Positions 16,401 through 41,665 of a stretch of 41,665 nt of DNA are shown here, in pieces. Source of the DNA: Planctomycetaceae bacterium. Lineage in GTDB: Bacteria; Planctomycetota; UBA8742; UBA2392; JABWBM01. The DNA lies in the NCBI GenBank assembly GCA_013360495.1, contig JABWBM010000003.1:1-41665 (forward strand), in the 5' to 3' direction. A program made the position numbers and the translations under genes. Below the pieces are notes generated by a model, which had not been told where the DNA came from, did not search any database, and saw only the letters and a program-made list of their open reading frames with translations. Within the stretch, counting starts at the first letter, position 1; the number at the start of each line of letters is the position of its first letter.

Positions 16401-16585
16401 GCGATTTCCTGCATGTTCGCAAGGGACGACTGGACGGCGAGGTAGCCTTCCTTCTTGTCGTCTTCCTTGTTGATGCGTTCTTGAACAGAATCAATGGCCT
16501 GCTGGCGCGCGGCGAGAATCGCCTGGATCAGAGCCTCGGAGTCGAGGCCTGACGCATTCCCAAGGATGCCCGAAATGCCAGCCAT
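13478..16585 (-). CDS. fliD: Flagellar hook-associated protein 2 (filament cap), unusually large
   Basis: FliD caps the flagellar filament and guides flagellin assembly outside the cell. The N-terminus (GISGILGNASGLDSEALIQA, then QERINKEDDKKEGYLAVQSS) is the FliD_N domain. The C-terminus has the long helix (IDERIKRLNEQIETINERIE, then RQFAAMEATLAESQQMN) of FliD_C. At 1,035 residues it is about twice the length of enterobacterial FliD. The excess is a series of flagellin-hook IN-type modules: TIDDVIDKIN, TMGDVVTLIN, DIYEILDQIN, TVGDVIDALN, SLNKIVEKIK and TLDELLDAIN. No other flagellar gene is in the window, so it lies outside the usual cluster. TAGGAT (minus strand, 16599-16594) ends 8 bp before the ATG. 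Confidence 0.9.
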   Translation of the reverse strand: MAGISGILGNASGLDSEALIQAILAARQQAIDSVQERINKEDDKKEGYLAVQSSLANMQEIARRLHNGTAFNASIIQSSNASKLLATGTTTSLEGTFSFFAHSLASVSQYVSNGFFNTASAKVTNTPGTMTVEIGNARLYRPTDLDALNGSTGIDRGKIRITDDTGTSTVIDLTNVVTIDDVIDKINSNGTVQVEARVNDMIGSGLLGQGLVIENASGAGTIKVENVGFGSTATSLGIEGTNAMGVIVGTRINSIGVQTSLASLNDGRGVGDGMSTLGILTITGSGAAINVDLTDAKTMGDVVTLINAQAGTVTASLSGTSIKLSDAGMPASITVSGLSATMDSLGIDSAMLLNMGGGDFLGRPVIASLNSVLTSSLAGVSGTGLPGTLAAASSFDITDSMGGITTVSFSGREDIYEILDQINNPIGPAANVLARIDKAGTGIEIVDKAGGAGSLTITDTVGTLAAAMGLAGVHADGLADAGNLNFKHFHGNRKLTEFGFDFGPQTGSIDVTLADGSQQRIDISLAETVGDVIDALNTLPTLSVSIGPYGDGLRIVDSSGGTSPLTFRDSAGKFAKALGLRGTFDFAATIDRRLEYDIAVDAGDSLNKIVEKIKALEVDVIASIVDDGSGANPYRLSLTATEPGVRNDINVRTDIDSFRFDQTSVASDSIMLYGNSTGSADPVVVRSITNTFKKVLEGVTLDLLGVSDEPINVTVTRDLEAVSNDVNELVDTFNAMKDRIDELTDFNIETLEGGPLLGDNTLRGLEFSLIRAYIDLVEGLPLGASTLASIGIEIDNDGRLTIDNEILLEALENRSQEVQDIFANSGKITPDTKFKNWNNGDGIKASDSGADLRITFADASADLLIDVSSYTTLDELLDAINADARITAEISADGRRLIFTDNTVPTTGTFSIRDENNSGTALSLGLTSTIAQSGVDFLETKKISLNTELGVARRIDNLAQEYIESEGLIDQATENIDERIKRLNEQIETINERIERERERLERQFAAMEATLAESQQMNTVLQQQAESSAKNNEK

Positions 16586-20918: not shown

Positions 20919-21480
20919 ACCAGTGTCGCAGTTGCAAATGATCCTGCTCAGGGAGGAGGCGCCCGCACATCTCAAGGCGCTTTGCAGGGCTATGCGCCGC
21001 GACCTTGACGACGTGCTCGCCGAATTTGGCCTCACCCCGGTGGAGATCGATACCCCGCCGGCGCCGGGGATCGTCAACGCGGGCGAGGCGACACTCGTGC
21101 TGCTTGACGATACGTTCAACCCTGTCCCCGTGCTGATCGAGGGAATGCTCGAAGCGATGGAGGAGTTCGACGTAGTGCTCGGGCCGTCCTTCGACGGACG
21201 GGTCTACGGCGCGGGCTTCGCGTCGGTGGGGGTGGATGTCGCGCAAGAGATTCTCGCGAACATGCCGCACGGAACGATCGATTCGCATCGTGAAATTATC
21301 GGGAAGCGGGGACTGCGAGCCTTTTGGCACGCGCCTTGGTACCGTGGCTGGGATTCCTCGACGCTGAAGTTCGCGCTTGCCCATATGCGCGCGCTCGAAG
21401 CAAGCGAAGATCCCGACTTCACGGCGATCCGCACGTTAAAGGAATTGGCGACGCTGGACACCGGACGGGAACAGGCATGA
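20905..21480 (+). CDS. DUF2064-type glycosyltransferase-like protein, degenerate
   Basis: About 191 residues resemble the DUF2064 / rSAM-selenodomain-associated transferase 1 family. ATLVLLDDTFNPVPVLIEGM stands where family members have the GSDxP motif, and EEFDVVLGPSFDGRVYGAGF matches the VLGPxxDGGYYLIG motif. The usual N-terminal nucleotide-binding segment (FxKxPxPGxVKTRL) is missing, and GSD and DGGYY are altered, so catalysis is doubtful; it may be a non-catalytic relative. The start is ambiguous: TTG 20905 has TGGAG 6 bp upstream and overlaps the kinase stop by 14 bp; GTG 20923 and ATG 20938 are in frame. Its stop overlaps the next gene as ATGA. Remote family match, moderate confidence. 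Confidence 0.55.
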   Translation: MKHGEPVSQLQMILLREEAPAHLKALCRAMRRDLDDVLAEFGLTPVEIDTPPAPGIVNAGEATLVLLDDTFNPVPVLIEGMLEAMEEFDVVLGPSFDGRVYGAGFASVGVDVAQEILANMPHGTIDSHREIIGKRGLRAFWHAPWYRGWDSSTLKFALAHMRALEASEDPDFTAIRTLKELATLDTGREQA

Positions 21481-24176: not shown

Positions 24177-26884
24177 CGCGATACGCGCGCGGAGTCGTAA
24201 GCATCGTGTGCTTGCTCATCGCGGGCGGAACGCTCTGCCGCGCCGATGATCCAAGCCATGGCAACCGCGACGCAGAGGCCGAGGCGCTCATGCTGCGCCG
24301 TATCGCCGCGTACTTTCACGGCAACGACGACGACCCGGCATCGATCATGCGTTGCTGGTCGCGCGAGATGGAACAGCGTGAAGCCGTCAGATTCGACACT
24401 CTTTACCGTCTGCGTGTCGCTACTGCGGCGCTCGACAGCGGCGAGGAAGCCGCGCAGAAACTCGCAACCGAGAGCCTTGACTATCCAACCGCCATGCCGG
24501 TGCGCGGCCAGGGCTCCGAGTTGCATACACCCTACGCCGCCATAGGAACGCTCTGGAACGCTTTGATGGCGAACCGAAGGCCGGGGCTTGCGGCGTCAGT
24601 GGCCGATTCGCTCATGACGAAATTTCCGGCGTCACGCTACGCCAAGCGCCTTAAAGCGGTTGCGTTAATGATCGACGGCAAGCTCGCGCAAGCGGGCGAG
24701 CTGCTTGCCGATTTACTCCGTGGCGAATCGAAGCAGTTTGCGTGGGAATACACATACACTTTTCAGGAGAAGGACGCCGCGCAGGAATTTTGGCGTTCGC
24801 CCTTGAGTCTCAACGACGTTCCATTTTGTCAGGAAGTCAGGGGAGTTCCGCTTGCCTATACCGTCGCCCATGACCTGCCGGAAGTTGAGTTGTGGGCGCG
24901 TCTCGCCGCGGCGGACAGTGCGGCGTTAACTGGCGCGGGACAAGATAAGGCCTGGACATATCTGAAGGCGAGGGCGCAATTCGAACAGGCTGCCGCGACC
25001 CATAACGCTGAAGCCTGCCGTACCGCGCTTGCCTCGATTTCGGGCGCGCTTGGCACTGGCGAGAATCCTATCTATCAGTTCCTCGATTTTCGCGCCGATG
25101 TCGCGACCGGTAACGCCAAGGGCGCGTTGGGCAAGTTCGGCCCGATCAGTTCCCGGCTGTGGCCATCGCCGTCAGATTCGTTGGTGGTCGCGCGTCAGGG
25201 CATGAGCCCGGCGGCCCATGGATTGGTGTACTGGGCGCTTGCTCTTACACGCAACGTCCCCGTGGCTCAAGTGGCAGAACATCTGTCCTACATTCCGCAG
25301 TACTTCTTTCCCATGGGGAATCCAAACGACCCCCGCGCCGTTGATTTACAACGTGACGCCTTCATGGCGATGTACGCCCTCGAACTCGAGCGTACCGCGC
25401 CAGAACGCTTTACCGAACTACTGCCCGCGCTGCAGGAACATCTGCAGATGAAAGTGAGCGGCGCTGACACCGCGAGTCAATATCAGTTCTTTGTGCTCGA
25501 GCATATCTGCTCGAACGCCGTGGACCTCGACAAGGCAAAACAAGTGTTCGAGATATGTTGCCAGTGGGTGGCGCACCTCTTCGGACCGGAGGGGCTCGAC
25601 ATCCCCGCCAGCGACGAAGCGCGCGGTTGGTTACACCTCGTCCGTCTCGATCGTCAATCGCGCGTTATCCCGGGGCCGCGTACGATGCCGATGGGCTGGC
25701 TTTTTCCGAACCGGCCGGACGCGTTGAAGTGCGCAGCGCTCGCGGCCGAGCGGCTGGTCACGCTGAGCGCGAACGCTGGCAAGGACGAGCTCGCCAAGTT
25801 CAAGACGGATATCGAGGAACAGGCGGCGAAATCCTTCCTCCCGTTGATGGAAAAGCGCGAAGCTGAAAATGCGAACAACTACGCTGGCCAGCTTCAGCGT
25901 CTCGCCTCACTGCTGGAGCAGTTCGAGATTCTGCGTGATGCTGTCAGTCCCGCCGTCGCCTCCGAGGTTGGCGAACCGGACTTCAAGAATATTCCGAAGG
26001 GGTGGAACCGCCGCTCGCTGCGCGCCGCGCTTAGCGCTAGCTCCAACGCCGGGAACCGGGTCGCGTTCGTGCGCAACGCCGCCGATACTCTTCCGGCGAA
26101 GGGGCAGCTCATGCCCCTCGAAGCGCTTGTCTACACCTTCGCGCGCGAGTTTATACGCGACGACGCCACGCGCGAGGCGGCCGGAAAGCCCGCGCTTGAC
26201 AAGCTTGACGACGCAAAGCTGCGCCTGCCTTTGCTCGGCCCAGCGCTCTTGCGTTCTTTCGAATCGCTGGTTCCGGCATTCACGAAGGATGAGGCTCTCG
26301 CGCGCAGCGTGATCGCAGCACTGATGGAAGACGAACTGAAACGTGTAACGAAATCGGCGTTGCAGGGTACCGGGAATCCAGACAATTCGCGTTCGCCCGA
26401 GCGTGTGCTGTACTCCAACGTCACACCTGAGACGCATTGGAGCTTTCCACGTAACTGCATCGATATTCTTGGCGCGGAGCACCGGGCGGTGACGCTGTAT
26501 CAGCGTTCGATAGCCGAGCAGCAGGAGTCCCTGACTGCGGATGTCTTACTCAGCGCAAACGGGCTGAACGCGATCGCGTGGAACCTTCACGGCGCGTGGA
26601 CCGGCGAGGGCCGTATCCAGCGCATGGCGATGTTCGGCCTCGCGTTCGGGGCGGATGTTTTCTCCATTCCACAGGCGCAATTCGCAGCCCCTTCAGGCAG
26701 CGCGAACATCGAGAATGTCGCCCATACGCTCGACACGGCGGCGTGGGGGCACTTTGCGTCGGGGGACGTGGACAGGGCCGTCGAAGTGGAGAAGTATGCC
26801 CGCGCGCTCAACCCGGGCGACCGGAACTATGATCTCACGCTGGCGGAGTTCGAGAAGGAGCGCAAGCCGAAAGACTCCGGGTAG
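24173..26884 (+). CDS. Secreted helical-repeat (TPR-like) protein of unknown function
   Basis: The 903-residue protein has a signal peptide (RYARGVVSIVCLLIAGGT, probable cleavage after LCRA), then predominantly helical sequence. Some segments look TPR-like, such as RLKAVALMIDGKLAQAGELL early on and the final GDVDRAVEVEKYARALNPGD, which is a good TPR consensus. No catalytic motif is recognised. It is the last gene of the kinase operon, joined to the HEAT-like gene by an ATGA overlap, and its predicted periplasmic location matches that gene's solenoid and the kinase's outer domain. The three could form one envelope complex, which is inference from operon structure and topology alone. No terminator is visible before the convergent gene ending at 26912. 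Confidence 0.68.
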   Translation: MTRYARGVVSIVCLLIAGGTLCRADDPSHGNRDAEAEALMLRRIAAYFHGNDDDPASIMRCWSREMEQREAVRFDTLYRLRVATAALDSGEEAAQKLATESLDYPTAMPVRGQGSELHTPYAAIGTLWNALMANRRPGLAASVADSLMTKFPASRYAKRLKAVALMIDGKLAQAGELLADLLRGESKQFAWEYTYTFQEKDAAQEFWRSPLSLNDVPFCQEVRGVPLAYTVAHDLPEVELWARLAAADSAALTGAGQDKAWTYLKARAQFEQAAATHNAEACRTALASISGALGTGENPIYQFLDFRADVATGNAKGALGKFGPISSRLWPSPSDSLVVARQGMSPAAHGLVYWALALTRNVPVAQVAEHLSYIPQYFFPMGNPNDPRAVDLQRDAFMAMYALELERTAPERFTELLPALQEHLQMKVSGADTASQYQFFVLEHICSNAVDLDKAKQVFEICCQWVAHLFGPEGLDIPASDEARGWLHLVRLDRQSRVIPGPRTMPMGWLFPNRPDALKCAALAAERLVTLSANAGKDELAKFKTDIEEQAAKSFLPLMEKREAENANNYAGQLQRLASLLEQFEILRDAVSPAVASEVGEPDFKNIPKGWNRRSLRAALSASSNAGNRVAFVRNAADTLPAKGQLMPLEALVYTFAREFIRDDATREAAGKPALDKLDDAKLRLPLLGPALLRSFESLVPAFTKDEALARSVIAALMEDELKRVTKSALQGTGNPDNSRSPERVLYSNVTPETHWSFPRNCIDILGAEHRAVTLYQRSIAEQQESLTADVLLSANGLNAIAWNLHGAWTGEGRIQRMAMFGLAFGADVFSIPQAQFAAPSGSANIENVAHTLDTAAWGHFASGDVDRAVEVEKYARALNPGDRNYDLTLAEFEKERKPKDSG

Positions 26885-29570: not shown

Positions 29571-30476
29571 ATGCCAGCCATGCAGTGTCTTGACGTGGAC
29601 ATGTCCGGCGTATTCGACCCCAACCGCGTACCGGCGCAAACGTTGCCCGATACAGCGACGCTATTGACCGTGACGGCGGTTGGTCTGGCCGTCGTCGGCG
29701 GCTTCTTCTATTGGCTTGTCCGAAGAACGCTGTCGCCTCGCGAAGACTTGTCCCAATCAACCAGTCCCGGTTCGCACGTTGCCGCAGGAGCATTGCTCCT
29801 CGTAGGAACCTATTTCGTGGCGCAAGTGATTGGCAGCTACGCGGGCATGGCCTTCGCCGGGTACACGCCTGTCGAAAATGGCCCGCTGCCAACACCAGAA
29901 CAGTACCACCAGATAGACATTATCCGCGCGTTGATCGTGCTGTTGACACCTATTCCCTATATCCTGTTTTTGAAAAGCGGCGGCGCCACCACGACACACA
30001 TCGGCTTGCGCGGGATGGGGAAGCGCGCTGCATGGATCCCGCTGCTTTGCGTGACATGGACGGCGTTGAGCATCGCCACGGGCTGGTTCGCTGTCGCCGT
30101 CAGCCAGTGCTTCGACCTTGGCCGGGATACCCAGGAAGTTCTCGCCCGCACGATGCAGCCAAGCGATTGGCGGCTTGTGGCGTCGATCCTCTCGCCCGTG
30201 ATGGCGGCTCCGCTCGCGGAGGAATTCGTGTTTCGCGTGGGTCTCTTCGGGCTTGCGCGCCGATACACGGGTTTTTGGCCGGCGGCAATCATCGTGACGC
30301 TCTTCTTCGCGTCGCTTCACGGACCAGTGGAACAGCCGCAGTATATCGTTCCGGTGTCGGTGCTGGGACTGAGTCTGTGCTGGGTGTACGAGCAGAGCCG
30401 CAACGTCTGGTTTCCGGTGGCATTGCATGCCTTTCACAACGCCTCGGTTCTGCTCCTAACAGGAATGCTTGAGTAA
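29571..30476 (+). CDS. CPBP-family intramembrane metalloprotease (CAAX protease-like)
   Basis: The 301-residue protein has about eight hydrophobic segments. The three active-site motifs of the CPBP/Abi family are present in order: EExxxR in PLAEEFVFRVGLFGL, FxxxH in FFASLHGP, and HxxxN in LHAFHNAS. Eukaryotic members cleave prenylated proteins; bacterial members act in bacteriocin self-immunity or membrane-protein processing, and the substrate here is unknown. The start is uncertain: ATG 29571, 29580 and 29601 are in frame, with no strong SD. It lies 7 bp upstream of the sulfotransferase ATG and is probably co-transcribed with it. This is the second intramembrane protease in the window after the M50 enzyme. 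Confidence 0.85.
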   Translation: MPAMQCLDVDMSGVFDPNRVPAQTLPDTATLLTVTAVGLAVVGGFFYWLVRRTLSPREDLSQSTSPGSHVAAGALLLVGTYFVAQVIGSYAGMAFAGYTPVENGPLPTPEQYHQIDIIRALIVLLTPIPYILFLKSGGATTTHIGLRGMGKRAAWIPLLCVTWTALSIATGWFAVAVSQCFDLGRDTQEVLARTMQPSDWRLVASILSPVMAAPLAEEFVFRVGLFGLARRYTGFWPAAIIVTLFFASLHGPVEQPQYIVPVSVLGLSLCWVYEQSRNVWFPVALHAFHNASVLLLTGMLE

Positions 30477-30483
30477 GGGGCCC

Positions 30484-31512
30484 ATGACAGCAAGCCCGGT
30501 CCAGACTAGCCATACCCGGCCGCGAACCATCGCCTATATCGTTGGCAGCGCGCGAAGCGGTTCGACCCTGCTTGGAATGCTGCTCGGTAATCACCCCGAG
30601 TGTTTCGCCATGGGCGAGATGGATAGCCTCGGCTCGTACCTCTCTCGCGCGAAAAGCCCAAACGCACTCTGCACTTGCGGAAGGATGCTCGACGAATGTC
30701 CATTCTGGAAAGCCGTTCTCGTTCGCGCGCAGGAACTTCTCAAGGAAACCGGGATTGCCCAGGATCTCGCAATGCTGCGCGAGCGGCCGCTGAATCGCCA
30801 GTACGGTACAGGATTGTTCGACACCAATATTCATGGTTTTCATCCATCATGGATTCACACGGCCATGCACCGGGCGGCGTTGCTTGCCGCGACATCGCTG
30901 CCGCACTGCGCTTCCCGCTTGACGCTTCGCCGGTTTGGCGGCCGCTACCGGAAAGCGGCGGAAAACTCGCTCTTTTGGTACGGCATCATCAGCCAAGTGA
31001 GCGAGAGACCGGTTGTGCTCGACTGTGGCAAGGGGGTTTTACGAATGCTCGCACTCGGCGCATGTGCGCCGGGGCCGTTGAAAGTGATCCACTTGATTCG
31101 CGACGGGCGGGGACAGGCGGCATCCATGAAGCGCGCGACGAGGCAGGATGTTGCAACGTCGGCTCGCAGGTGGGTCAGGGGAAACCGGAGAATCATGCGG
31201 ATGTACGGGAGAATGGACGCTTCTAACGTGTGTAGAGTGAGTTACGAGGCGCTCTGCCGTGACCCACGCGCGACACTTGAAGTGCTCTATGCGTTTCTTG
31301 GTTGCCGCGCGTTTCATGAAGGTGAATGGCAGCGCGCGTTGACGTTAGAGAAAACGTCGTCCCATATGCTCGGCGGAAATCCGATGCGCTTTCGAAACGA
31401 TGAACGGACGATCGCGCCCGATGAGCGCTGGCGGGACGAATTGAGCGAGGACGAACTGCGGCGTTTCCAAAATGTCAAAGGCGCGCGCGAGATGCTTGAA
31501 TTGTGCCGGTGA
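30484..31512 (+). CDS. Sulfotransferase-family protein
   Basis: The 342-residue protein carries both PAPS-binding signatures. The 5'-phosphosulfate loop is IVGSARSGSTLLGMLLGNHP near the N-terminus, and the 3'-phosphate region is KVIHLIRDGRGQAASM in the second half. The C-terminal part (ASNVCRVSYEALCRDPRATL, then a final DELRRFQNVKGAREML) follows the Sulfotransfer_3 family pattern. Such enzymes transfer sulfate from PAPS to carbohydrates, lipids or peptides; the acceptor cannot be read from sequence. Four Cys residues cluster in the first third (TCGRMLDECPFW region). ATG 30484 has AAGGGG only 3 bp upstream; a TTG at 30469 is in frame but inside the CPBP gene. Confidence 0.83.
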   Translation: MTASPVQTSHTRPRTIAYIVGSARSGSTLLGMLLGNHPECFAMGEMDSLGSYLSRAKSPNALCTCGRMLDECPFWKAVLVRAQELLKETGIAQDLAMLRERPLNRQYGTGLFDTNIHGFHPSWIHTAMHRAALLAATSLPHCASRLTLRRFGGRYRKAAENSLFWYGIISQVSERPVVLDCGKGVLRMLALGACAPGPLKVIHLIRDGRGQAASMKRATRQDVATSARRWVRGNRRIMRMYGRMDASNVCRVSYEALCRDPRATLEVLYAFLGCRAFHEGEWQRALTLEKTSSHMLGGNPMRFRNDERTIAPDERWRDELSEDELRRFQNVKGAREMLELCR

Positions 31513-31546
31513 CGTCATGAGCGGCGTTCCCCATCGCATGCGAACG

Positions 31547-31555
31547 TGATAGCAT
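31547..31555 (+). promoter_or_regulatory. Extended -10 placing a leaderless start for the 88-residue protein
   Basis: TGATAGCAT: the hexamer TAGCAT (31550-31555) ends exactly 7 bp before ATG 31563. No SD lies between. Confidence 0.4.
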
Positions 31556-31562
31556 ATGCGCC

Positions 31563-31829
31563 ATGAGCGAAGACCCAGCCCTGTCGCAGCCGCCGGTGAT
31601 ACTTCTCCAAAACCGAGAAGGCGGGAGCATCTTCTGGCGGGCAGCGATCTCGCTGAGCAACAAGACGCTGACGAAAACCGCGAAGCTCAACATCAAGAGC
31701 GGCACAGTGTCCGGTTCCGACGCCGAGAAGAACGCCACCGACCTCGCTTACAAGGCGATTTGCGATATGTGCGCGGAAAAGGGCGTCCCCCCGCCGAAGT
31801 TCAAATACTGCATCGTGCAGAAGGGGTGA
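31563..31829 (+). CDS. Small unknown protein (88 aa)
   Basis: No family is recognised. The protein is soluble and Lys/Ser/Thr-rich, with a likely beta segment (PPVILLQNREGGSIFWRAAI), a basic stretch (KTLTKTAKLNIKSGTVSG) and a helix (AEKNATDLAYKAICDMCAEK), ending in KFKYCIVQKG. The two C-terminal-half Cys plus the final one do not form an obvious metal site. It has no SD, but an extended -10 fits a leaderless transcript. The gene stands alone, 50 bp after the sulfotransferase. Coding status rests on length, start context and non-repetitive composition. Confidence 0.5.
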   Translation: MSEDPALSQPPVILLQNREGGSIFWRAAISLSNKTLTKTAKLNIKSGTVSGSDAEKNATDLAYKAICDMCAEKGVPPPKFKYCIVQKG

Positions 31830-31837
31830 TGAATCTC

Positions 31838-31846
31838 TGCTAAGAT
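31838..31846 (+). promoter_or_regulatory. Extended -10 placing a leaderless start for the 104-residue protein and rlmN
   Basis: TGCTAAGAT: the hexamer TAAGAT (31841-31846) ends exactly 7 bp before ATG 31854. No SD lies between. The CTCTGCTAA core is shared with the kinase-operon promoter. Confidence 0.45.
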
Positions 31847-31853
31847 CGTCGAA

Positions 31854-32168
31854 ATGGCGGCGCGGAAACATTGCTGTACTATGAGGAAAAGCCCTTTACT
31901 TAGACGTTATTGGATAACCTTTGAATCGGATCCTAACAATCCGCTCGGTTGTGGCGTAACCGCTTATTCGATAGAGGACGCACTTCGTCTTCTACAACAT
32001 GAATATTTGGACGAGATGGGATACCCCTTGAAGCCGGTAAAGAATGTTACAGAAGACGTTGACGTGAGAACGCTCGATCAAGGACATGTCGTACCCAATG
32101 TTGGACTTGTTTCTGAGCGAGGCGTTTGGTTCCCACGCTGTAATGTTCGAGACTTAAAGCGCCCATGA
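31854..32168 (+). CDS. Small unknown protein (104 aa) coupled to rlmN
   Basis: The function is not recognised. The core RYWITFESDPNNPLGCGVTA followed by YSIEDALRLLQHEYLDEMGY looks like a small alpha/beta domain; similar short hypothetical proteins with a W-I-x-F ... G-V-T-A-Y-S-x-E-D-A pattern are, from memory, widespread. Base composition is visibly more AT-rich than the neighbouring genes, which may indicate acquisition. ATG 31854 fits the leaderless promoter; ATG 31881 is an alternative. The stop overlaps the rlmN ATG as ATGA (32165-32168), so rlmN translation is probably coupled to it. Confidence 0.55.
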   Translation: MAARKHCCTMRKSPLLRRYWITFESDPNNPLGCGVTAYSIEDALRLLQHEYLDEMGYPLKPVKNVTEDVDVRTLDQGHVVPNVGLVSERGVWFPRCNVRDLKRP

Positions 32169-33355
32169 ACCTTAATATGTTTACGGTATTACCACTGACC
32201 AACCTCATCGGCCTCACGCCCGCCGCTATCGGCGAGCACTTGTCAGCCATGGGCGAGCAGAAATTTCGTGGCAAGCAGATTGCCCAATGGCTCTATACCA
32301 AGCGTGTCGCCGACTTCGACCAGATGACCGACCTCGGCAAAGAGCTGCGCGAAAAGCTCAAAGCCGGCTTCGCGCTTCGCACGGCCAAAGTCGTCGCCCG
32401 CGACCACAGCCCCACGTCCAACACGACCAAGCTCGCCCTGCGCTTTCCCGACGGCGTAGTGATCGAGAGCGTCTTGATGATCGAAAGCGACGATGACGAC
32501 CGCGCCGACATGCCCTTCGGTGAAGGATGGGGAAAGGAAAATCCCTCTCCCTGGCAGGGAGAGGGTGGCGAGCGGAGCGAGCCAGGTGAGGGTGGAAAAC
32601 GCAGAATCACGGCGTGCATCTCGACGCAGGCGGGCTGCGCCATGGGCTGCCGCTTCTGCGCCTCGGGCCAACTCGGCCTCAAGCGCCATCTCACGCCTGC
32701 CGAAATTCTCGAACAGTTCTACGCCATAGCCGCCGAGCTTGGACCGGAGCGCTGGCTGACCAACGTCGTCTATATGGGCATGGGAGAGCCGCTTCACAAT
32801 TGGGAGGGATTTACCGGATCGCTCACGGCGCTGACTTCGGAGTGGGGCTTCAACATGTCGCCGCGCAGGATCACGGTGTCGACTGTGGGCGTCGCCAAAC
32901 GCCTTGCGGAACTCGCCGACCTCGATATCCCGGTGAACCTCGCGGTCTCGCTGCACGCGCCCGACGATGTGATTCGCGAGAAACTCATCCCGACCAACGC
33001 GGCCTATGGCGGCGTCGCGACGATCCTCGCGGCGGCGAAGGAATACTACGCGCGCACGAAGCGGCAGGTGACCTTCGAGTATACGCTGGTGCGCGATGTG
33101 AACGACGGCGCGGAGCACGCGCGCGCGCTGGTGACGTTGCTCAGGGACGGATTCCGCGATTGCAACATCAACCTGATCCCGATGAATCCGGTGGAGGGCA
33201 GCGGCCTGAAAACGCCCGAGGAAGAAGTGGTTCGGCTTTTCGCGGGCGTGCTGAAAAGCTCAGGTTTCTCGGTCCACACGCGCAAGAAGAAGGGCCGCTC
33301 GGTCAACGCCGCCTGCGGCCAGTTGCGCCTTCGCGTGGAGCAGGGCAAGGCGTAG
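32165..33355 (+). CDS. rlmN: Dual-specificity 23S rRNA A2503 / tRNA A37 C2-methyltransferase (radical SAM)
   Basis: RlmN uses SAM radical chemistry and a [4Fe-4S] cluster to methylate C2 of A2503 in 23S rRNA and A37 in some tRNAs. The N-terminal helical domain (KFRGKQIAQWLYTKRVADFD) is present. The cluster motif CxxxCxxC is in GCAMGCRFCASGQLG, then NVVYMGMGEPLHNWEG, the LAVSLHAPDD strand, NLIPMNPVEGSGL and the C-terminal cysteine in GRSVNAACGQL. At 396 residues it is longer than the usual 350-380. The extra length is an in-frame insertion at about residues 120-145 derived from a palindromic repeat (32543-32593), just before the ITACISTQAGCAMGC segment. ATG 32165 overlaps the previous stop; ATG 32177 is an alternative. 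Confidence 0.93.
   Translation: MNLNMFTVLPLTNLIGLTPAAIGEHLSAMGEQKFRGKQIAQWLYTKRVADFDQMTDLGKELREKLKAGFALRTAKVVARDHSPTSNTTKLALRFPDGVVIESVLMIESDDDDRADMPFGEGWGKENPSPWQGEGGERSEPGEGGKRRITACISTQAGCAMGCRFCASGQLGLKRHLTPAEILEQFYAIAAELGPERWLTNVVYMGMGEPLHNWEGFTGSLTALTSEWGFNMSPRRITVSTVGVAKRLAELADLDIPVNLAVSLHAPDDVIREKLIPTNAAYGGVATILAAAKEYYARTKRQVTFEYTLVRDVNDGAEHARALVTLLRDGFRDCNINLIPMNPVEGSGLKTPEEEVVRLFAGVLKSSGFSVHTRKKKGRSVNAACGQLRLRVEQGKA
32543..32593 (+). repeat. Palindromic repeat inserted in frame in rlmN
   Basis: CCCTCTCCC (32543-32551), loop TGGCA, GGGAGAGGG (32557-32565) form a perfect 9-bp stem, followed by TGGCGAGCGGAGCGAGCCA and GGTGAGGGT. The same type of unit (ccctctccc...gggtggcgagcg...gagccgggtgaggg) is a familiar dispersed repeat in many bacterial genomes. 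Here it is read through and encodes a peptide of SPWQGEGGERSEPGEGG type. Confidence 0.75.
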
Positions 33356-33387
33356 TTTTCAGCGCGCTCTCTTGCCGGGCCTTCCAA

Positions 33388-34191
33388 TTACATTTCGCTC
33401 ATGCGGGGGTAAAGGTCGAAGCGAACGGTTTTGCCCGCGATGGCGGCTCCGGGTCTCGGGCCGTCGAGCGGTGGCGCATGGCGCGGGCGCTTGACTACGA
33501 CTCTGCGCTTCGCCTTTGCAAGCGCGGCTTCGAGCAATGCCGGGGAATCGGCGTCGTCCTTCACCAGCGCCTGCAGCACCCGCATTTCTTTCTTCACGAG
33601 CGCGGATTTCTGGCGCTCGGGAAACATCGGGTCGAGGTAGATGACGTCGGGCCGCTCGTCGCCCTCGAGGTGCCCGATGTAGCGGATGCTGTCTGCGACG
33701 ACCAGCGAGAAGCGTTCCTGAATCACCGGCGCGAGCAGATGGTCCATCGATGCCCGGAGCAAGCCGTCATGTACCAGCGCCGCGATAAATGGCGATCGTT
33801 CTATTCCGGTGACGTGACAGCCAAGCCACGTGAGCATGATGGCGTCACGTCCAAGCCCAAGTGTCGCATCCAATACTTTCGGCCGGTACGCCCCGCGAAT
33901 GCCGACCGCGCGCGCGACGGCCTGGCCGGTACCGCCGCCCTGTCTCCTGCGGTGGCCGATGACCCCTTCTATATAATCGACGGAGATGGCGAGGCGCGGC
34001 GTGTTGCGTGGCATCACCAGTTCGAGGCGGTCCGTTGTGAGCACGAGGTGGAACTCATGTTCCTTTGAGTTGAGCGGAACGAGATCGAGCCCTAGGTTGC
34101 GGGCGAGAAGCTGTGCCTCGGCGTGGCGCTCGGCGACGAATGTCACCGCGACGGAGGGTTCGGACGCTGGATCATCGGTATCGGCAGCCAT
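33388..34191 (-). CDS. rsmJ: 16S rRNA (guanine-1516-N2)-methyltransferase
   Basis: RsmJ methylates N2 of G1516 in 16S rRNA with SAM. The protein closely follows the E. coli RsmJ pattern. It has RRQGGGTGQAVARAVGI, the SAM-binding segment VLDATLGLGRDAIML and a second-strand GIERSPFIAALVHDGL. The catalytic-region signature is YLDPMFPERQKSALVKKEMR, followed by KRRVVVKRPRHAPPL and a closing KTVRFDLYPRM. Length (267 residues from ATG 34191; 270 from GTG 34200) is normal. It begins 10 bp after the HcrB-like gene stop and is probably co-transcribed with it, without functional relation. It converges on rlmN, another rRNA methyltransferase. Confidence 0.9.
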   Translation of the reverse strand: MAADTDDPASEPSVAVTFVAERHAEAQLLARNLGLDLVPLNSKEHEFHLVLTTDRLELVMPRNTPRLAISVDYIEGVIGHRRRQGGGTGQAVARAVGIRGAYRPKVLDATLGLGRDAIMLTWLGCHVTGIERSPFIAALVHDGLLRASMDHLLAPVIQERFSLVVADSIRYIGHLEGDERPDVIYLDPMFPERQKSALVKKEMRVLQALVKDDADSPALLEAALAKAKRRVVVKRPRHAPPLDGPRPGAAIAGKTVRFDLYPRMSEM

Positions 34192-34201
34192 GCGCCCCAC
34201 A

Positions 34202-35209
34202 TCACACCGCGAGTTCCTTCAGCAGGCGGCGCGTGAACACGGCCGCCATCTTTTTGCGGTAGCCCGGCTCCATCGGCACGGTGAGTTTTGGCTGCACCGT
34301 CGTTTTGACGTGTTCTGCGATGGCGTCGATGGCGCCGTCGTCAAGCTGCTTGCCGAGGTACTGGTTGACGTGGGTGTTGAAGACGATGGGGTAGGTGTCG
34401 ACGGCGTTGACCGAAAGCGCGAAGTGTTCGAGCTTGCCCTTGCCGTCACGGGCGATGGCGGCGGCGACGCCGAGGGAGGGGAAGTCCCAGCTTTCGCGCG
34501 GGCGGAGCTTCTTGTATCCGGCGGTCAGCGTTTTCGCGCGTTCGGGAAAGTGGATTGCGACGAGCATCTCGCCCGGTTCCTTGACGAAGCGCGCGCGGCC
34601 ATCGTGGTGGTAGAACTCTGACGCCTTCACCTTACGCGTTCCCTTCGGCCCGGCGAGTTCATATTCCGCGCCGAGCACGATCAGGACGGGCGCGAAGTCC
34701 GAGCAGTTCGTGGCGAAGCATTCGTTGCCATTCTCGACAAGCTGGCCGTCGCGTTTGATCTTCGGCACGACGTGGCAGCGCGTGCCGTCGGCCTTAAGGC
34801 AATAGCCGAGGCTCGTGCGCCAGAAATAGCTCTGGTTGAAAAAGTGGCAGCGGGTATCGAGGAGCGCGTTGCCGCCGATGGTTGCTTGCTCCTGAATCAG
34901 CACCGATGCGACCTTCTTCGCGACGTAGGCGAGGACGGGGAGACTGCGGGCGACGGTTTCACTCGATGCGATCTCGTGGAGCTTAACGCAGGCGCCGAGG
35001 CGTAGCGGTTCGATGGTGTGCAGGCTCGATATGCCATTGAGCGCGATGACGTTTGGCCGCGCGTTCAGGCCCCACTTGTAGTTGCAGAGCAGGTCGGAAC
35101 CGCCAGCAAGAAAATCCGATTTGTCCGAGCCGAATTTCTTCACCAGCGCGACGGCCTCTTCGACCGTCGTGGGCTTATGCAATTCGAACTGTGGCAGCAG
35201 CATGGTCAT
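34202..35209 (-). CDS. FAD-binding subunit of a xanthine-oxidase-family enzyme, HcrB-like with [4Fe-4S] insertion
   Basis: The 335-residue protein is the medium, FAD-binding subunit type of molybdenum hydroxylases. FAD sites are FLAGGSDLL (33-41) and ATIGGN (109-114), with a C-terminal CO dehydrogenase flavoprotein-like domain (YKKLRPRESWDFPSLGVAAA). Between them is the segment that in 4-hydroxybenzoyl-CoA reductase beta subunit (HcrB) binds an extra [4Fe-4S] cluster. It reads LLDTRCHFFNQSYFW, then GYCLKADGTRCHVVPK and NECFATNCSD, giving C121, C137, C145 and C164 or C169. That suggests low-potential electron transfer, as in anaerobic aromatic metabolism. The molybdenum and 2Fe-2S subunits are not in the window. 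ATG 35209 is chosen by homology; an extended -10 lies 18 bp upstream. Confidence 0.85.
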   Translation of the reverse strand: MTMLLPQFELHKPTTVEEAVALVKKFGSDKSDFLAGGSDLLCNYKWGLNARPNVIALNGISSLHTIEPLRLGACVKLHEIASSETVARSLPVLAYVAKKVASVLIQEQATIGGNALLDTRCHFFNQSYFWRTSLGYCLKADGTRCHVVPKIKRDGQLVENGNECFATNCSDFAPVLIVLGAEYELAGPKGTRKVKASEFYHHDGRARFVKEPGEMLVAIHFPERAKTLTAGYKKLRPRESWDFPSLGVAAAIARDGKGKLEHFALSVNAVDTYPIVFNTHVNQYLGKQLDDGAIDAIAEHVKTTVQPKLTVPMEPGYRKKMAAVFTRRLLKELAV

Positions 35210-35227
35210 CGGCGCACCCGTAACGGG

Positions 35228-35236
35228 TTTATACCA
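35228..35236 (-). promoter_or_regulatory. Extended -10 promoter of the HcrB-like gene
   Basis: On the minus strand TGGTATAAA reads 35236-35228 (TATAAA, five of six consensus bases), 18 bp before ATG 35209. A weak TTCACA lies 18 bp further upstream. The leader would be short, with no clear SD. Confidence 0.45.
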
Positions 35237-35295
35237 AAGCCGGGCGGGAAATGTGAATTGTCTTCGGGATGGAAGTTGGCACTGTGGGTTGAAGA

Positions 35296-35320
35296 CGTCA
35301 CGGCATAGCCGTGACGCTAC
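35296..35320. repeat. Palindromic repeat ending GTGACGCTAC, overlapping a stop codon
   Basis: CGTCACGGC (35296-35304), loop ATA, GCCGTGACG (35308-35316) form a perfect 9-bp stem, followed by CTAC. On the minus strand the conserved GTAG end supplies the TAG stop (35319-35317) of the beta-propeller gene. The position also suits a transcription terminator, but no U-tract follows. Confidence 0.7.
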
Positions 35321-38300
35321 CTCAAATTGGCAGTTCGCTGGCGGCGGATGGTGTGGGCCGTGGCGATGATGGCGAGCATGATCCCCGCGAGCGGCCACGT
35401 GGCGCCTGGCGAATGGTCGTTGTCGAGCGCGCAGCCGCCGACGCCGCTCGGGGCGATACCCGTGATGTTCAATGGCGGCGCGACGACGTTAATGGAGAAG
35501 GGACGGTTGACAGTATCGCCAAGAGTATCCTCAACTTGAGCCGCGAAGATGTATTGGCCCTTCGCGCTATCTCCCACAGTCCCGGTAATCTGCCCGCTGG
35601 TGGACAGACTCAGGCCCGGAGGCAGCACGCCGCCGATCTTCGTCCAGGTGTAGCTCGGGATGCCGCCGGATGCCGCGAGCGTGGTTGAGTACGCGGCGCC
35701 CGGATAGGTGGCGGTGAGTTCCGTTTCTGTGGTGATGGAAAGGGCGGATGGGGAGATGCCATCGCCGAGAATCTGGAAGATGAACACGCCATCGCCATCA
35801 GTCGGGTCGTCATGGGTGATGTGAATTTCCGCCGTCTTGGCGCCAGCGGAGGTCGGCGCGAAGGTGACGGTGAACTGAGTATTCTCGCTGAAATCAAGCG
35901 GCGTCGTATACCCCGTGGTATCGAGGGAAAATTGGTCCGGGTTGACACCGTCAAGGAAAGGTATCCCAACGGTCAATGTCGAAAGCCCTGAATTTCGCAC
36001 TTCCACGGTCATGACATCGACGGAGATTTCCCCAACGAACTCATCGGGGAATTGCGGGGCGGTATTGCCGTCTCCGATAGCGGCCCCATCCACAGCGACG
36101 ATCAACGCCGGCTCATCGCCGAAGCCGACAACTTCGAACGTGAAGGGCGAGGCGATGGCAGGGTCGTTGCAATCGAAAGAGACGTCCGCTCTCATGTAGG
36201 CATTGTCGGTGGGATTGAAATACACCGAAAATTGCGTGGTCGCGCCGGCAAGCACCGTGGTCGAAAAACCGCCAAGCCCGATCAGGAATTCGCCGGGATC
36301 GTTGCCCCCAAGGGACGGGATGCCGAGCGTCAGCGTGCCATCACCGGTGTTTTCGATATACACGACAAAAGGGTCGGAGATGCCCGCATCGACGCCAACG
36401 ATACCGAAGTCGCGCTCAGTAGGCTCCCCCGGCGCTCCCGAACCGTCGGTGATGACGAGTCCGTTTGCATCGGTTTCATACACGGTCATGGTGGCGGTGA
36501 GAGCGGTTCCTTCGACATCGAAGGTGAATGGCTGCGCGCCGGTATCGTCGTTGTGGTCGATTTGCACCGTGGCTGACTTGTTGCCTCCGGTCGCCGGGAT
36601 GAAATACACATCGAAGGTGGTGGATTCACTACCCGTGAGTGCCATATCCGTGTCCGACGTGTCGAGTTCAAACTCGGTGGGGTCGGTTCCGATGAGTGTG
36701 ATGGCGCTGATGTCGATGGTGCCACCGCCGGCATTGGAAAGAGTGATCGTCAGCGGCTGGGAACGCTTGTTGGTATCGAGATCGCCGAAGTCCGTGTCGA
36801 TGCCGTCCATGCTCGGTGATTCGCCGTTACCGATTGCTCCCCCGCTGCGATCGGCGACAGTGAGCGACGAGTAGAAGAACTCGCCAAGGTAATGGGCATC
36901 GTCGGTGCTGGAGGCGGAGAAATAACCGCCAGCAATGAGCCCTTGACTAGACTCGAATAACATCGGTATGGGCGGATCACCATAGTAGGCTTGGTCAGCC
37001 CAAACGCTTGTCGCGTACCCGGTGTCAATTGCGCCGGACAATGCGTCAAATTTGGCCATACCGCGGACGACGCCTGTCGCCTCTTCAATTATGAGTCCTG
37101 TGCAGTATAAAGCGCCGTTTTGGACAACAACGCCATCCATTTCCGTGTCGGCTCCACCTCCACCGAGCAGCCAATCGAGCACGCCGTCGGTTGAAAAAGA
37201 AGTGATGGCATTGCCGGCGGCTCCACCGGTTGCGTGTTCAATGAGCACGACATTATGGGAAATGTGTGTGACGCCTCCGTCTTTCGCATAATCAATCCTA
37301 CCGGCACAGTAAACGCCGGTTGAGTCGCTTGCAAAAGCGTATACTTCGCCATCTTGTGGGGCGAATATGTTGTCCCACTGAATCTGAGGGTCCCAAGCCA
37401 TGACCGAATCTGCCGTCAGGTCGATCGCCCCAGCCCCTGCCCGGTCGGTGCCGCCGAGCGCAGTCGCGCCACCTCCCGCAAGGCCAACATAAAGAATCGT
37501 GTTGTAGATATGTAAGGCTTTGACTCGAACGGCCGCGCTCGGGAACGCGGCGTTGACGACGCCTGCGTATGTTATTTCCGCGAGCCGAGGACCGCCCATT
37601 CCGCCAATATCGGTAAATGTTCCTCCAACGTAAAGATTGGTGCCATCGCCGGCCAAGGCGTCGCCCTCTTTCGTCGCTGCATCGAAACTGGGAAATCCTG
37701 CGTCGGCAGCGCCCGTTGTCCCGTCGGTTTTCGAAAGGCTGTTTTTCATGGTCGCGCCAATGGCATCAAAGAGTCCGGTGATGTAGGCATTGCCAGTGCT
37801 ATCGATGAAAATATCGTTGATTTTCGCGTTGGCGGCCACTCCGCCATTGGTGACATTGGGATTCCACGACGTGACCTGCCGGTAGTCGGCGTCGGCGTCG
37901 TCAACATCATCAAGCGCATACGCGTTGTTGCGGGTCATTTGACTGACACCCATGAACGACCCGCCGACGCAGACGACGCCAGCGGCGTCCGCGGCAAGTG
38001 CATAAACCTTTGTATCGAGGATTGCCGTTCCAGCCGAAAGTGCGTCGATATTCGTGTCTTCGTTGAGGGGGGGCAGTGCATTGCCCGTAAGCGCGACAAA
38101 ATTGACCGGGTTTGTCGTCACAGCAGCGCCGTCCACATCCTCGATGAACGTGTCAAACACGCCGCCAACATATACCGTTCCTGACACAGCCGTGATCGCG
38201 CGAACACCAATATTTTGGCCAGACGAATCCGAGAGTTGAGTGTCATAGTCGGCTACAGCGCCGGATGACGCGACAACCGCGCCTAACCAGCGGCAATTGT

Positions 38301-38790
38301 CCCCAGTTCCCGCAGCGCCACCTGCAATCGCTGTAAACGTTCCACCGATCACCGCTCTGTTGCTCGTCCCGCCTGTGATGCCTATTGCATACACCGTTCC
38401 GTTGGGCTGTGCCGCGGTCGCAAGCACGAGGCCGGTCGAGACTCTTACTCGCGCAAAATTCGGACTTGATGTTGTGTTCACTTCGGTGAAGTCACCGCCT
38501 AACAATATGTATGTTGCTCCGAGAACAGTTGTAGCGTTGATAGCGTAGCAGTTACCGCCGGCCGTCAACGAGAGTGATTCCGGAACCCATCCTGCGCCAG
38601 CGTAAAACATTCCGGTTGTCGTATCGATACCGGCGCATCCATCCACATCGCTATCGCCAAGAATCTCGCCGAATTCACCGCCAACAAGTAAAAGCGATCC
38701 GGTGAGTTTGATAGCATGTACGGTGTCGTCCGGCGCAGGATTGAATGGCAGCACCGATCCGCTCAGAGCATCGACGGCGGCGAGATACGC
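35317..38790 (-). CDS. Secreted beta-propeller / choice-of-anchor-D protein with Cys-type sorting tail, 5'-truncated at a junction
   Basis: About 1,157 residues remain. The first 720 or so are beta-propeller-like repeats of the DUF5122 type (YLAAVDALSGSVLPFNP, AIKLTGSLLLVGGEF, YVGGTFTDIGG, FDALSGAIDTG). Three HYDIN/choice-of-anchor-D-like Ig modules follow, with repeated features such as DFGDLDTNKRSQPLTITLSN and DFGIVGVDAGISDPFVVYIE. Then comes a putative Ig (He_PIG) domain (GGIPSYTWTKIGGVLPPGLS). The C-terminus is GGCALDND, a hydrophobic helix (WPLAGIMLAIIATAHTI) and RRQR, resembling MYXO-CTERM/Synerg-CTERM sorting signals. It is predicted to be cell-surface anchored. The signal peptide and N-terminus are missing: upstream of 38790 the open frame continues only as antisense of a different gene. 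The stop codon comes from a repeat. Confidence 0.8.
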   Translation of the reverse strand, partial: AYLAAVDALSGSVLPFNPAPDDTVHAIKLTGSLLLVGGEFGEILGDSDVDGCAGIDTTTGMFYAGAGWVPESLSLTAGGNCYAINATTVLGATYILLGGDFTEVNTTSSPNFARVRVSTGLVLATAAQPNGTVYAIGITGGTSNRAVIGGTFTAIAGGAAGTGDNCRWLGAVVASSGAVADYDTQLSDSSGQNIGVRAITAVSGTVYVGGVFDTFIEDVDGAAVTTNPVNFVALTGNALPPLNEDTNIDALSAGTAILDTKVYALAADAAGVVCVGGSFMGVSQMTRNNAYALDDVDDADADYRQVTSWNPNVTNGGVAANAKINDIFIDSTGNAYITGLFDAIGATMKNSLSKTDGTTGAADAGFPSFDAATKEGDALAGDGTNLYVGGTFTDIGGMGGPRLAEITYAGVVNAAFPSAAVRVKALHIYNTILYVGLAGGGATALGGTDRAGAGAIDLTADSVMAWDPQIQWDNIFAPQDGEVYAFASDSTGVYCAGRIDYAKDGGVTHISHNVVLIEHATGGAAGNAITSFSTDGVLDWLLGGGGADTEMDGVVVQNGALYCTGLIIEEATGVVRGMAKFDALSGAIDTGYATSVWADQAYYGDPPIPMLFESSQGLIAGGYFSASSTDDAHYLGEFFYSSLTVADRSGGAIGNGESPSMDGIDTDFGDLDTNKRSQPLTITLSNAGGGTIDISAITLIGTDPTEFELDTSDTDMALTGSESTTFDVYFIPATGGNKSATVQIDHNDDTGAQPFTFDVEGTALTATMTVYETDANGLVITDGSGAPGEPTERDFGIVGVDAGISDPFVVYIENTGDGTLTLGIPSLGGNDPGEFLIGLGGFSTTVLAGATTQFSVYFNPTDNAYMRADVSFDCNDPAIASPFTFEVVGFGDEPALIVAVDGAAIGDGNTAPQFPDEFVGEISVDVMTVEVRNSGLSTLTVGIPFLDGVNPDQFSLDTTGYTTPLDFSENTQFTVTFAPTSAGAKTAEIHITHDDPTDGDGVFIFQILGDGISPSALSITTETELTATYPGAAYSTTLAASGGIPSYTWTKIGGVLPPGLSLSTSGQITGTVGDSAKGQYIFAAQVEDTLGDTVNRPFSINVVAPPLNITGIAPSGVGGCALDNDHSPGATWPLAGIMLAIIATAHTIRRQRTANLR

Positions 38791-38800
38791 CCGGTCCGCG
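38785..38800. other. Chimera junction 1: beta-propeller gene / DrmA helicase
   Basis: On the minus strand coherent beta-propeller sequence runs up to RAYLAAVDAL (about 38790). On the plus strand coherent helicase sequence begins at VRARLLAALEADLVGPF (about 38794). The two genes meet within about 10 bp with no promoter, SD or intergenic DNA, and both lack their 5' ends. Composition and codon use change abruptly to still higher GC. Confidence 0.85.
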
Positions 38801-40968
38801 CGCGTCTCCTCGCTGCGCTCGAGGCCGATCTCGTCGGGCCGTTCGGAGCCGGCGACCCCTCCGCGGATCCCGACGATGTCGCGCGATCCAGCGAGACGCT
38901 CACGTTGCCGCCGTCGCGGTGGTACCTCACCGGGTTTCTCGCGCCGCAGGGGGCGCGGGCGCCCGAGGCGGATGATCTCGATTCGCACGGCGGCGAGCTC
39001 GCGGTCGGGAGCGAGAGCCAGGCGGATGATGCGGGGAGCGAGGAGCCGGAGCCGAAGAGGCCGGTCAGGTTCGCGGCTTCGATGGGGCTCAGCGTCTACT
39101 TGCCGGCGGGCAAGGGTGGGGCGGATGCCATCGAGGTCGAGGTCTCGTATGCGCGGTACGACAAGGTCGAGATCGCGCTCGATCGCGAGGACAAGAAGAC
39201 GCATGGGTGGAAGCGCGTTCCGCATGGGCCGGTAAGGGTCTCGGTGCCGCTCGATCAGGCGGTGCTCAGCAAGGGCGTCGGTGTCCCGTTGTCGGCGGGG
39301 CTCGTCGTCAAGGGGGAGCTCCGCACCACCGACATGGACGGCCTCGAGCCGGGCACGCGCGTGCTCAGCTTGTTTCTCGTCAACGACAGCGTCGCGCTCG
39401 AGAAAGACCGGGACCTCAACTACGTCTTTCAGGTTCGCTTCGCGCTCCATTACGCGCACGGCTTCTGCTGGCGGCCCAATCGCAAAGGCGAGGACGCGCC
39501 CGCCGACGATGATCAACGCGTGCTGGCGCTGCTCTTCCGCGATCGGAAGGAGTGGGCCGTCGGGCACAACACCAGTGTCCTCCAGCCCGTGCCGGATCCG
39601 GACGGCAAGGTCCGGTCCCTGCGCACCACGCAGATCCCTCGGTACGAGGTCCCGAGCGTCGCTCACCAACCGGTCGCGTCGCTCATGCTCGGCATGCGGG
39701 ACCTCGCCCAGCTCAAGGACGGCCACGCGCTGCAGCGCGCCCTCTCGCCGCTCGTCGAGGCGTACGAGAAGTGGCTCGGCCAGCAGCGACACGCGCCGCT
39801 CGATCGGAATGCGCTCGAAGAGACGCGCGACACGCTGGTCGTCAAAGCCGATCGCGTCAAAGCGCGGATCGCCGAGGGCATCGCGCTCCTCGCCAAGGAC
39901 GACACGGTTCGCGAGGCTTTCATCCAGGCCAACTCCGCCATGTTCGTCGCCGCGCTCCAGGCCGATCGCCAGCGCGAGGACCCCCGGTACAGCGAGACCC
40001 AACGACCCGAGTGGCGGCCGTTCCAGCTCGCGTTCGTCCTGATGAACCTGCCCTCCATCGCCGACCCATCGCACGCGGATCGCAAGCTCGCGGACTTGAT
40101 CTACTTCCCGACGGGCGGCGGAAAGACCGAGGCGTATCTCGGCCTGATTGCCTTCACGCTCCTCCTGCGGCGAATGCGCGGCAAGTCGCGCAAGGACGAG
40201 GGCCGCGGGGTCGCGGTCATCCTGCGCTACACGCTCCGCCTCCTGACGCTCGATCAGCTCGCGCGCGCGTCCACGCTGATCTGCGCGCTGGAAGAGATTC
40301 GCCGCCGCAACCCGGCAAAGCTCGGCAATGCGCGATTCACGATTGGCCTCTGGGTCGGGCGTTCCGCCACCGCCAATCGATTGAAAGAGGTGCACGCTGC
40401 GCTGAACGAGTTCGGGGTCGGCGCACGGGAATCGCCGTTCCCGCTCACCAAGTGCCCCTGGTGCGGAGAGGACCTCCGCATCGAGAACATCAAGCTCACA
40501 GACGATGCGGGCGCTGTCAGCAAGACCAAGTACACGCGCGCCGTCGTGTATTGCGACGGGGCCCAATGCCTGTTCACGGAGGCCAAGCGCGCAGGCCAGG
40601 GTCTACCCGTGTTGTTCGTCGACGAGCAGCTCTATCAGGAGCTCCCGGACTTCCTCGTCGCCACCGTCGACAAGTTCGCGATGATGCCTTGGCGCGGCGA
40701 AGCAGGCATGTTGTTCGGACGCGCCACCCATCTCGGTGACCTGCGCGCGTACGGCCCCATGCACCACGTGCCGAAGGACGCTCAGCCTCTTCCCGAGGGG
40801 CTCTTGCCGCCCGAGCTCGTCGTGCAGGACGAGCTCCACCTGATCAGCGGCCCGCTCGGCACCATGGTCGGGCTCTACGAGAGCGCCGTGGACTACCTGT
40901 CGGAGCGCGAGGTCGACGAGGTCCGCCGCGCGCCGAAGGTCGTCTGCTCCACCGCGACCGCCAGGCGC
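38797..40968 (+). CDS. drmA: DISARM-type helicase DrmA, truncated at both ends (foreign segment)
   Basis: About 724 residues of a superfamily 2 helicase remain; full DrmA proteins are about 1,100-1,300. The N-terminal region has RARLLAALEADLVGPF and LPPSRWYLTGFLAPQG, typical of DrmA. Walker A is YFPTGGGKTEAYLGL (near 40110). A Cys pair follows in CPWCGEDL, with a second Cys group in VVYCDGAQCLF. The DExH box is ELVVQDELHLISGPLGTMVG, the strongest family signature. The protein breaks off after VVCSTAT, motif III, so helicase domain 2 is gone. DrmA acts with DrmB and a methyltransferase or DrmC in DISARM anti-phage defence; none of these is present. Codon use and composition differ from the segment on the left. 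Confidence 0.83.
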
Positions 40969-40972
40969 GCGA
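40950..40972. other. Chimera junction 2: DrmA helicase / LysR regulator
   Basis: The helicase frame is meaningful up to VVCSTAT (about 40959). Past ARRA it becomes antisense of a LysR gene, whose own frame is meaningful from 41198 down to about DAFARLAVAVE. The bases gaccgccaggcgcgc fit both sides, so the join may use microhomology. Both genes lose their 3' parts here. Confidence 0.82.
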
Positions 40973-41198
40973 AGGCGTCCTTGGCATCGGCCAGCAGCAC
41001 CTGGCCGGCATCGGTCAGCAGCAGCTGGCGCGGCAGGCGGCGGAACAGCTTCACGCCCAGCGTGTCCTCGAGCAGACGGATCTGGTGGCTGATCGCGGTC
41101 GGCGTCACCGCCAGCTCGTCGCCGGCCTTGGTGAAGCTCAGATGCCTTCCGGCGGATTCGAAGGCGCGCAACGCGTTGAGCGGCGGCAGCTTGGCCAT
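40959..41198 (-). CDS. LysR-family (GcvA-like) transcriptional regulator, N-terminal fragment (foreign segment)
   Basis: About 80 residues are recognisable from ATG 41198: LPPLNALRAFESAGRHLSFT, the winged HTH with ELAVTPTAISHQIRLLEDTL, LFRRLPRQLLLTDAGQ and the start of the linker helix DAKDAFARLAVAVE. This is the LysR HTH of the GcvA-like subgroup. The effector-binding domain is lost at the junction near 40960; the frame continues to 40893 only as antisense of the helicase. It is divergent from the DUF1127 gene, with a 149-bp gap (41199-41347) that would hold both promoters. Confidence 0.82.
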
Positions 41199-41347
41199 GG
41201 CGTCCCGCGAATAGCTGAGATTTTCTCATCGACTCTATGCGGAGCGATCGTTTGCCGCAAGGGCGTCGCTGATCCTAAATGGTCGCCATGAAGGCCACCG
41301 GCGCGACGCTGGCCCGGCGGCTCGGATGAGGAAAATTGGAGGCCGAC

Positions 41348-41578
41348 ATGCTGCACCCCCTGCTCTCCCTGGGCCCCGCACCCGTGCCGGTCGCGCGGAC
41401 GCCCTCCCGCCGGCCGGGGTCGCTCGCCGTGCGCTTCTTCGATACGCTGTTCGACTGGATGGACCGCTACCGGTCGCGCCGGGCGCTCTTCGGCATGACC
41501 GACGCCCAGCTCAACGACGTCGGGCTGACCCGCGCGGACATCCATGCCGAGGCCGGGAAGCCGTTCTGGCGGCAGTAG
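41348..41578 (+). CDS. DUF1127 (YjiS-like) small protein
   Basis: The 76-residue protein has a variable N-terminus with Pro and Arg, then RFFDTLFDWMDRYRSRRALF and GMTDAQLNDVGLTRADIHAE. The LxxMTDxQLxDVGLTRxDI ending is the DUF1127 signature, found mostly in alpha- and gammaproteobacteria. Short family members of this Arg-rich type have been linked to RNA metabolism and phosphate or stress responses in Alphaproteobacteria. GGAGG (41338-41342) lies 5 bp before ATG 41348; a TTG at 41336 is less likely. Together with the LysR and GFA genes it indicates an alphaproteobacterial source for this last segment. Confidence 0.82.
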   Translation: MLHPLLSLGPAPVPVARTPSRRPGSLAVRFFDTLFDWMDRYRSRRALFGMTDAQLNDVGLTRADIHAEAGKPFWRQ

Positions 41579-41595
41579 ACGACCAAGGAGACCGG

Positions 41596-41665
41596 ATGTC
41601 GGGAGCGATCAGGAATGGCGGCTGCCTGTGCGGCGCGGTGCGCTTCGCGGCGCGCGGGCAGCCCA
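41596..41665 (+). CDS. GFA-family (glutathione-dependent formaldehyde-activating-like) protein, N-terminus only
   Basis: Only 23 codons are present before the window ends. The sequence includes GGCLCGAVRFAARG, the CxCGxVRF zinc-binding signature that opens GFA/CENP-V-like proteins. AAGGAG (41585-41590) lies 5 bp before ATG 41596. Named family members bind glutathione or S-hydroxymethylglutathione, but most are uncharacterised. It follows DUF1127 by 17 bp and may share its transcript. Confidence 0.7.
   Translation, partial: MSGAIRNGGCLCGAVRFAARGQP

Follow-up and report, generated by a model that had tools for sequence, protein, structure and literature searches.

The right end of a draft-genome contig is very probably a three-way chimera of unrelated bacterial DNA

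Shared k-mers in metagenome assembly graphs are a recognised cause of contigs that mix several genomes (PMC7299287). In such inter-genomic chimeric contigs (PMC7299287), unrelated genomes are joined, at least one short shared word is involved and genes are broken on both sides. They are also marked by a location at a contig end and by composition and taxonomy that differ from segment to segment. Contig C222 resembles them in all of these respects. It differs from the usual case in having two joins within 2.2 kb, that is, three sources, and in that one of the joins (join 1) is without a clearly resolvable shared word. The middle segment can also be compared with DrmA of the DISARM defence system (NF038325): it matches profile positions 1-775, yet it has no start codon, no C-terminus and no partner genes.

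The window, by which we mean the whole stretch of DNA analysed, is the entire contig C222 (41,665 bp), one of 256 contigs of a draft genome of 3.42 Mb that is 91.8% complete. Its right edge is the contig end. A tract of ~2.9 kb at this end contains three pieces, labeled A, B and C from left to right, and two gene-breaking joins, and piece C is the last DNA of the contig. We consider it almost certain, judging from sequence comparisons, that the right end of C222 is a three-way chimera created during assembly or library preparation, as the earlier note had proposed. This is the best explanation because three lineages meet within 2.9 kb, one piece copies a foreign chromosome letter for letter, genes are broken at the joins, one join has a shared word, and the whole tract lies at a contig end.

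Origins of the three pieces

Host DNA makes up piece A (1 to ~38,790). Its last gene, on the minus strand at 35,317-38,790, encodes a beta-propeller protein that contains an Ig-like domain besides its choice-of-anchor-D repeats (NF012200, E=1.3e-29; PF05345). Homology search found homologues of this gene to be plentiful both in its own genome and in genomes of the same order. Elsewhere in the window, positions 13,478-16,585 code for a FliD-like flagellar cap protein, unusually long at 1,035 aa. Positions 18,171-26,884 hold the gene of a large Ser/Thr kinase of 915 aa and, after it, two ORFs of ~950 aa without an NCBIfam match, the first of which has a weak match to HEAT repeats.

Piece B (38,794-40,975, plus strand) is a truncated DrmA helicase gene (NF038325, E=2e-192). 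Its extent at both joins was deduced from homologues, and its right limit may be placed at 40,950 or 40,975. The profile match, on 38,782-40,956, covers NF038325 positions 1-775 of 1165 with a score of 642, below the family cut-off of 950. The closest protein relatives belong to Myxococcales, Nannocystis, Polyangium and Sorangium (65-72% aa), the best being a Myxococcales protein (L002, 72% aa). The best DNA match (76% nt) lies on a 10.75-Mb contig of genome G763, whose class is also that of the best protein match; it was also the best among 318 genomes of the class of G001, in which the exact donor was not found. DrmA homologues occur in 8 of 60 sampled relatives of the host, where the best matches reach 42-44% aa. 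Since it is closest to Myxococcota both by sequence and by tetranucleotide composition, piece B is, on these comparisons, of Myxococcota type and unlike the host. The neighbouring ORFs encode LysR, DUF1127 and GFA-type proteins, and full-length DrmA accompanied by other DISARM genes was not observed. Neither drmB nor a methylase gene lies beside DrmA, and an intact defence system is absent.

Piece C (40,951-41,665) comes from an alphaproteobacterial chromosome, and the source could be identified as G153, a genome of the class of Salinarimonas ramus (Alphaproteobacteria). All 715 bp are identical to contig C13 of this genome (100% identity; the initial query was identical at 706 of 706 bases). 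Three genes are involved: that of a GcvA-like LysR regulator (40,951-41,198, minus strand; PF00126, E=9.9e-20), of which ~82 codons from the start are present and the rest is missing; an intact gene for a DUF1127 protein (41,351-41,578, plus strand; PF06568, E=1.4e-11); and the opening 23 codons of a gene for a GFA-type protein (41,597-41,665, plus strand), recognized by the motif GGCLCGAVR rather than by a profile hit. In G153 the three genes lie next to one another, none of them truncated, on a contig of 27 kb, with LysR of 321 aa (~82 of the 321 codons are in the window) and a GFA ORF of 139 aa (locus L090). The GFA gene of the window, reduced to 23 of 139 aa, is broken by the contig end and not by a join. 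LysR and DUF1127 both have mainly alphaproteobacterial relatives, the nearest in plasmid records being those of Azospirillum and Skermanella. The view of the earlier note that this gene set looks alphaproteobacterial and unlike the main segment is thus borne out by the 715 identical bp and by the intact locus in G153. When 20 kb of the G153 contig was compared with the host genome, nothing matched besides piece C; likewise, window positions 30,000-40,965 (host and DrmA DNA) gave only weak, unrelated matches in G153.

The assignment of best matches by segment, a check that the earlier note had suggested, consequently gives the same order and the host itself for A, Myxococcota for B and Alphaproteobacteria for C. 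Composition, the other suggested comparison, changes at the joins as well, between A and B by both GC and tetranucleotides and between A and C by GC only. The GC content of the host background is 0.595 (sd 0.022, 2.2-kb windows), compared with 0.68 for piece B and 0.69 for piece C; both values are above those of every host background window of the same length tested. The tetranucleotide distance of piece B is larger than those of all 168 host windows and falls inside the range of Myxococcota loci, although these loci include DrmA homologues, so that the fit is partly built in. For piece C (690 bp in this test), tetranucleotides fit the G153 locus, but so short a piece does not by this measure alone speak decisively against the host, and 21 of 581 host windows are equally extreme.

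Gene structure at the two joins

DrmA, LysR and the propeller gene are all cut at the joins, while their homologues are intact. Join 1 (A to B) had been placed at about 38,790, with both flanking genes lacking their 5' ends. Both genes are indeed cut there, but DrmA has lost only a few codons and the position is fuzzy (38,780-38,794). Position 38,794 is both the start of nucleotide similarity to DrmA and the limit up to which the propeller frame is plausible. The join is located to the interval 38,780-38,794 and not to a single base; any overlap is at most short, with no clear shared word. A search of viral contigs revealed no exact match to join 1. According to the comparison with homologues, piece B is without the start codon and ~4-6 further codons at its 5' end; the starts of most homologues lie about five codons ahead of the first conserved VR in this fragment. 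On the other side of the join, the nearest propeller paralogue in the same genome is an ORF of 1,678 residues in contig C56 (33%). Its alignment with the window begins at position ~38,784, and a further ~566 residues of the ORF lie upstream of the matching start. Because of this extension, the propeller gene of the window is probably cut as well, with a large N-terminal part missing. No match to the propeller could be found past 38,794 within C222. The argument of the earlier note against a single insertion, namely that the host gene does not resume on the far side, therefore stands.

Join 2 (B to C) had been described as a point at about 40,960 at which the helicase and LysR genes both lose their 3' ends. 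Both genes are truncated, DrmA by ~410 C-terminal residues, or its last third (homologues run 404-419 aa past the end of the fragment). The join, however, is not a point but a 25-bp overlap (40,951-40,975) that fits both DrmA and LysR. Homology to DrmA extends to 40,975, with the frame up to 40,974 reading STATARRAK, where most homologues have STAT[VA]RRA[RK]. Although the DrmA frame still fits up to that position, the LysR donor DNA is exact from 40,951 on. Just beyond 40,951, where identity with G153 ends, only 23 of 51 bases match. The corresponding word in the DrmA gene of G763 agrees with the LysR DNA at 20 of 25 positions, and nowhere else in the 20-kb locus of G153, with 39,977 positions tested, was a score of 20 reached. 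The dual fit of these 25 bp is most simply explained if a short word at join 2 was common to both source genomes, which were probably joined through it.

Assembly, library or cell

It is most likely that a short GC-rich word common to two genomes let a metagenome assembler, or template switching in the library, cross from one to the other. In such a sequence of events, host DNA would have been joined at ~38,790 to a DISARM drmA fragment from a Myxococcota-type bacterium, and this fragment in turn, at 40,951-40,975, to alphaproteobacterial chromosomal DNA (715 bp), after which the contig ended. The source DrmA would itself have carried the same 25-bp word, and the joining would have taken place in silico or in a library, not in a cell. 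Whether the assembler made the joins or merely copied them is a separate matter: a library-level event before sequencing (template switching during PCR or multiple displacement amplification, or fragment ligation) is a version of the chimera, an alternative to in-silico joining that leaves the verdict of an artefact untouched. Template switches, too, exploit short words common to both templates, and the 25 bp at join 2 are of this kind; join 1, without a clear long shared word, is rather ligation-like. However, molecules joined in a library are as a rule rare, and a pair of such joins within 2.2 kb would need to survive assembly. We regard a library origin as possible but the less likely course, with assembly favored roughly twofold, a figure that reflects judgement and not computation.

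A real event would require two successive foreign captures in the beta-propeller gene, of a Myxococcota drmA fragment and then of alphaproteobacterial DNA. DISARM genes are scattered over lineages, and the homologues found among the host relatives could be seen in this light. If true, such a double capture would represent illegitimate recombination across three bacterial lineages that left the alphaproteobacterial DNA unaltered. Against it, piece C is fully identical to the genome of another class, no gene at the joins is left unbroken, DrmA is without its C-terminal third or a partner gene, and the foreign tract continues to the contig end. Moreover, the end of C222 has neither of the marks of a horizontal insertion, an integrase or transposase or a host gene resuming beyond: neither enzyme is apparent among ORFs at 36.5-41.7 kb (by inspection, the main ORFs also by profile). 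Such a capture is therefore very improbable. Even less credible is the reading in which the entire contig derives from one unusual genome and the match to G153 reflects contamination of G153. G153 may be a draft, but its LysR, DUF1127 and GFA genes form an uninterrupted locus, the LysR and DUF1127 relatives place that locus among Alphaproteobacteria (Azospirillum and Skermanella first), and the DrmA relatives include, besides the 10.75-Mb contig, the complete genome of Sorangium cellulosum. Pieces B and C also differ in composition from piece A, contrary to a single genome.

Consequences for the contig and composition of other contig ends

The chimera holds no new biology, and its practical meaning is limited to quality control: the final 2.9 kb of C222 should be trimmed. 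Left untrimmed, the end of the contig would contribute a false DISARM helicase and a false fusion ORF of 832 aa (38,716-41,214), and would wrongly suggest gene transfer. As the fragments are unrelated and falsely joined, a gene spanning either join is not real, and no product across the joins is expected. We also considered whether the DrmA gene might be intact and begin at another start codon, at 38,716. This was rejected, as that position falls within propeller DNA read antisense and the C-terminal third would still be missing.

In a wider composition sample, comprising stretches of 55 host contigs, window positions 39,001 and 39,501 were among the strongest outliers. The sole host contig with higher GC in this sample was C80, at its left end (L121, 1-3,700; 0.71 vs 0.594 for the host). 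The ORFs there were read as an M20-type peptidase, as RdgB with the RNase PH region, and as a hypothetical protein for which a search of 16 genomes of the same order gave no match. The left end of C80 is possibly a second foreign contig end. An end of contig C33 (L114, 1-400), just upstream of a valyl-tRNA synthetase-like gene, has a GC content of 0.73.
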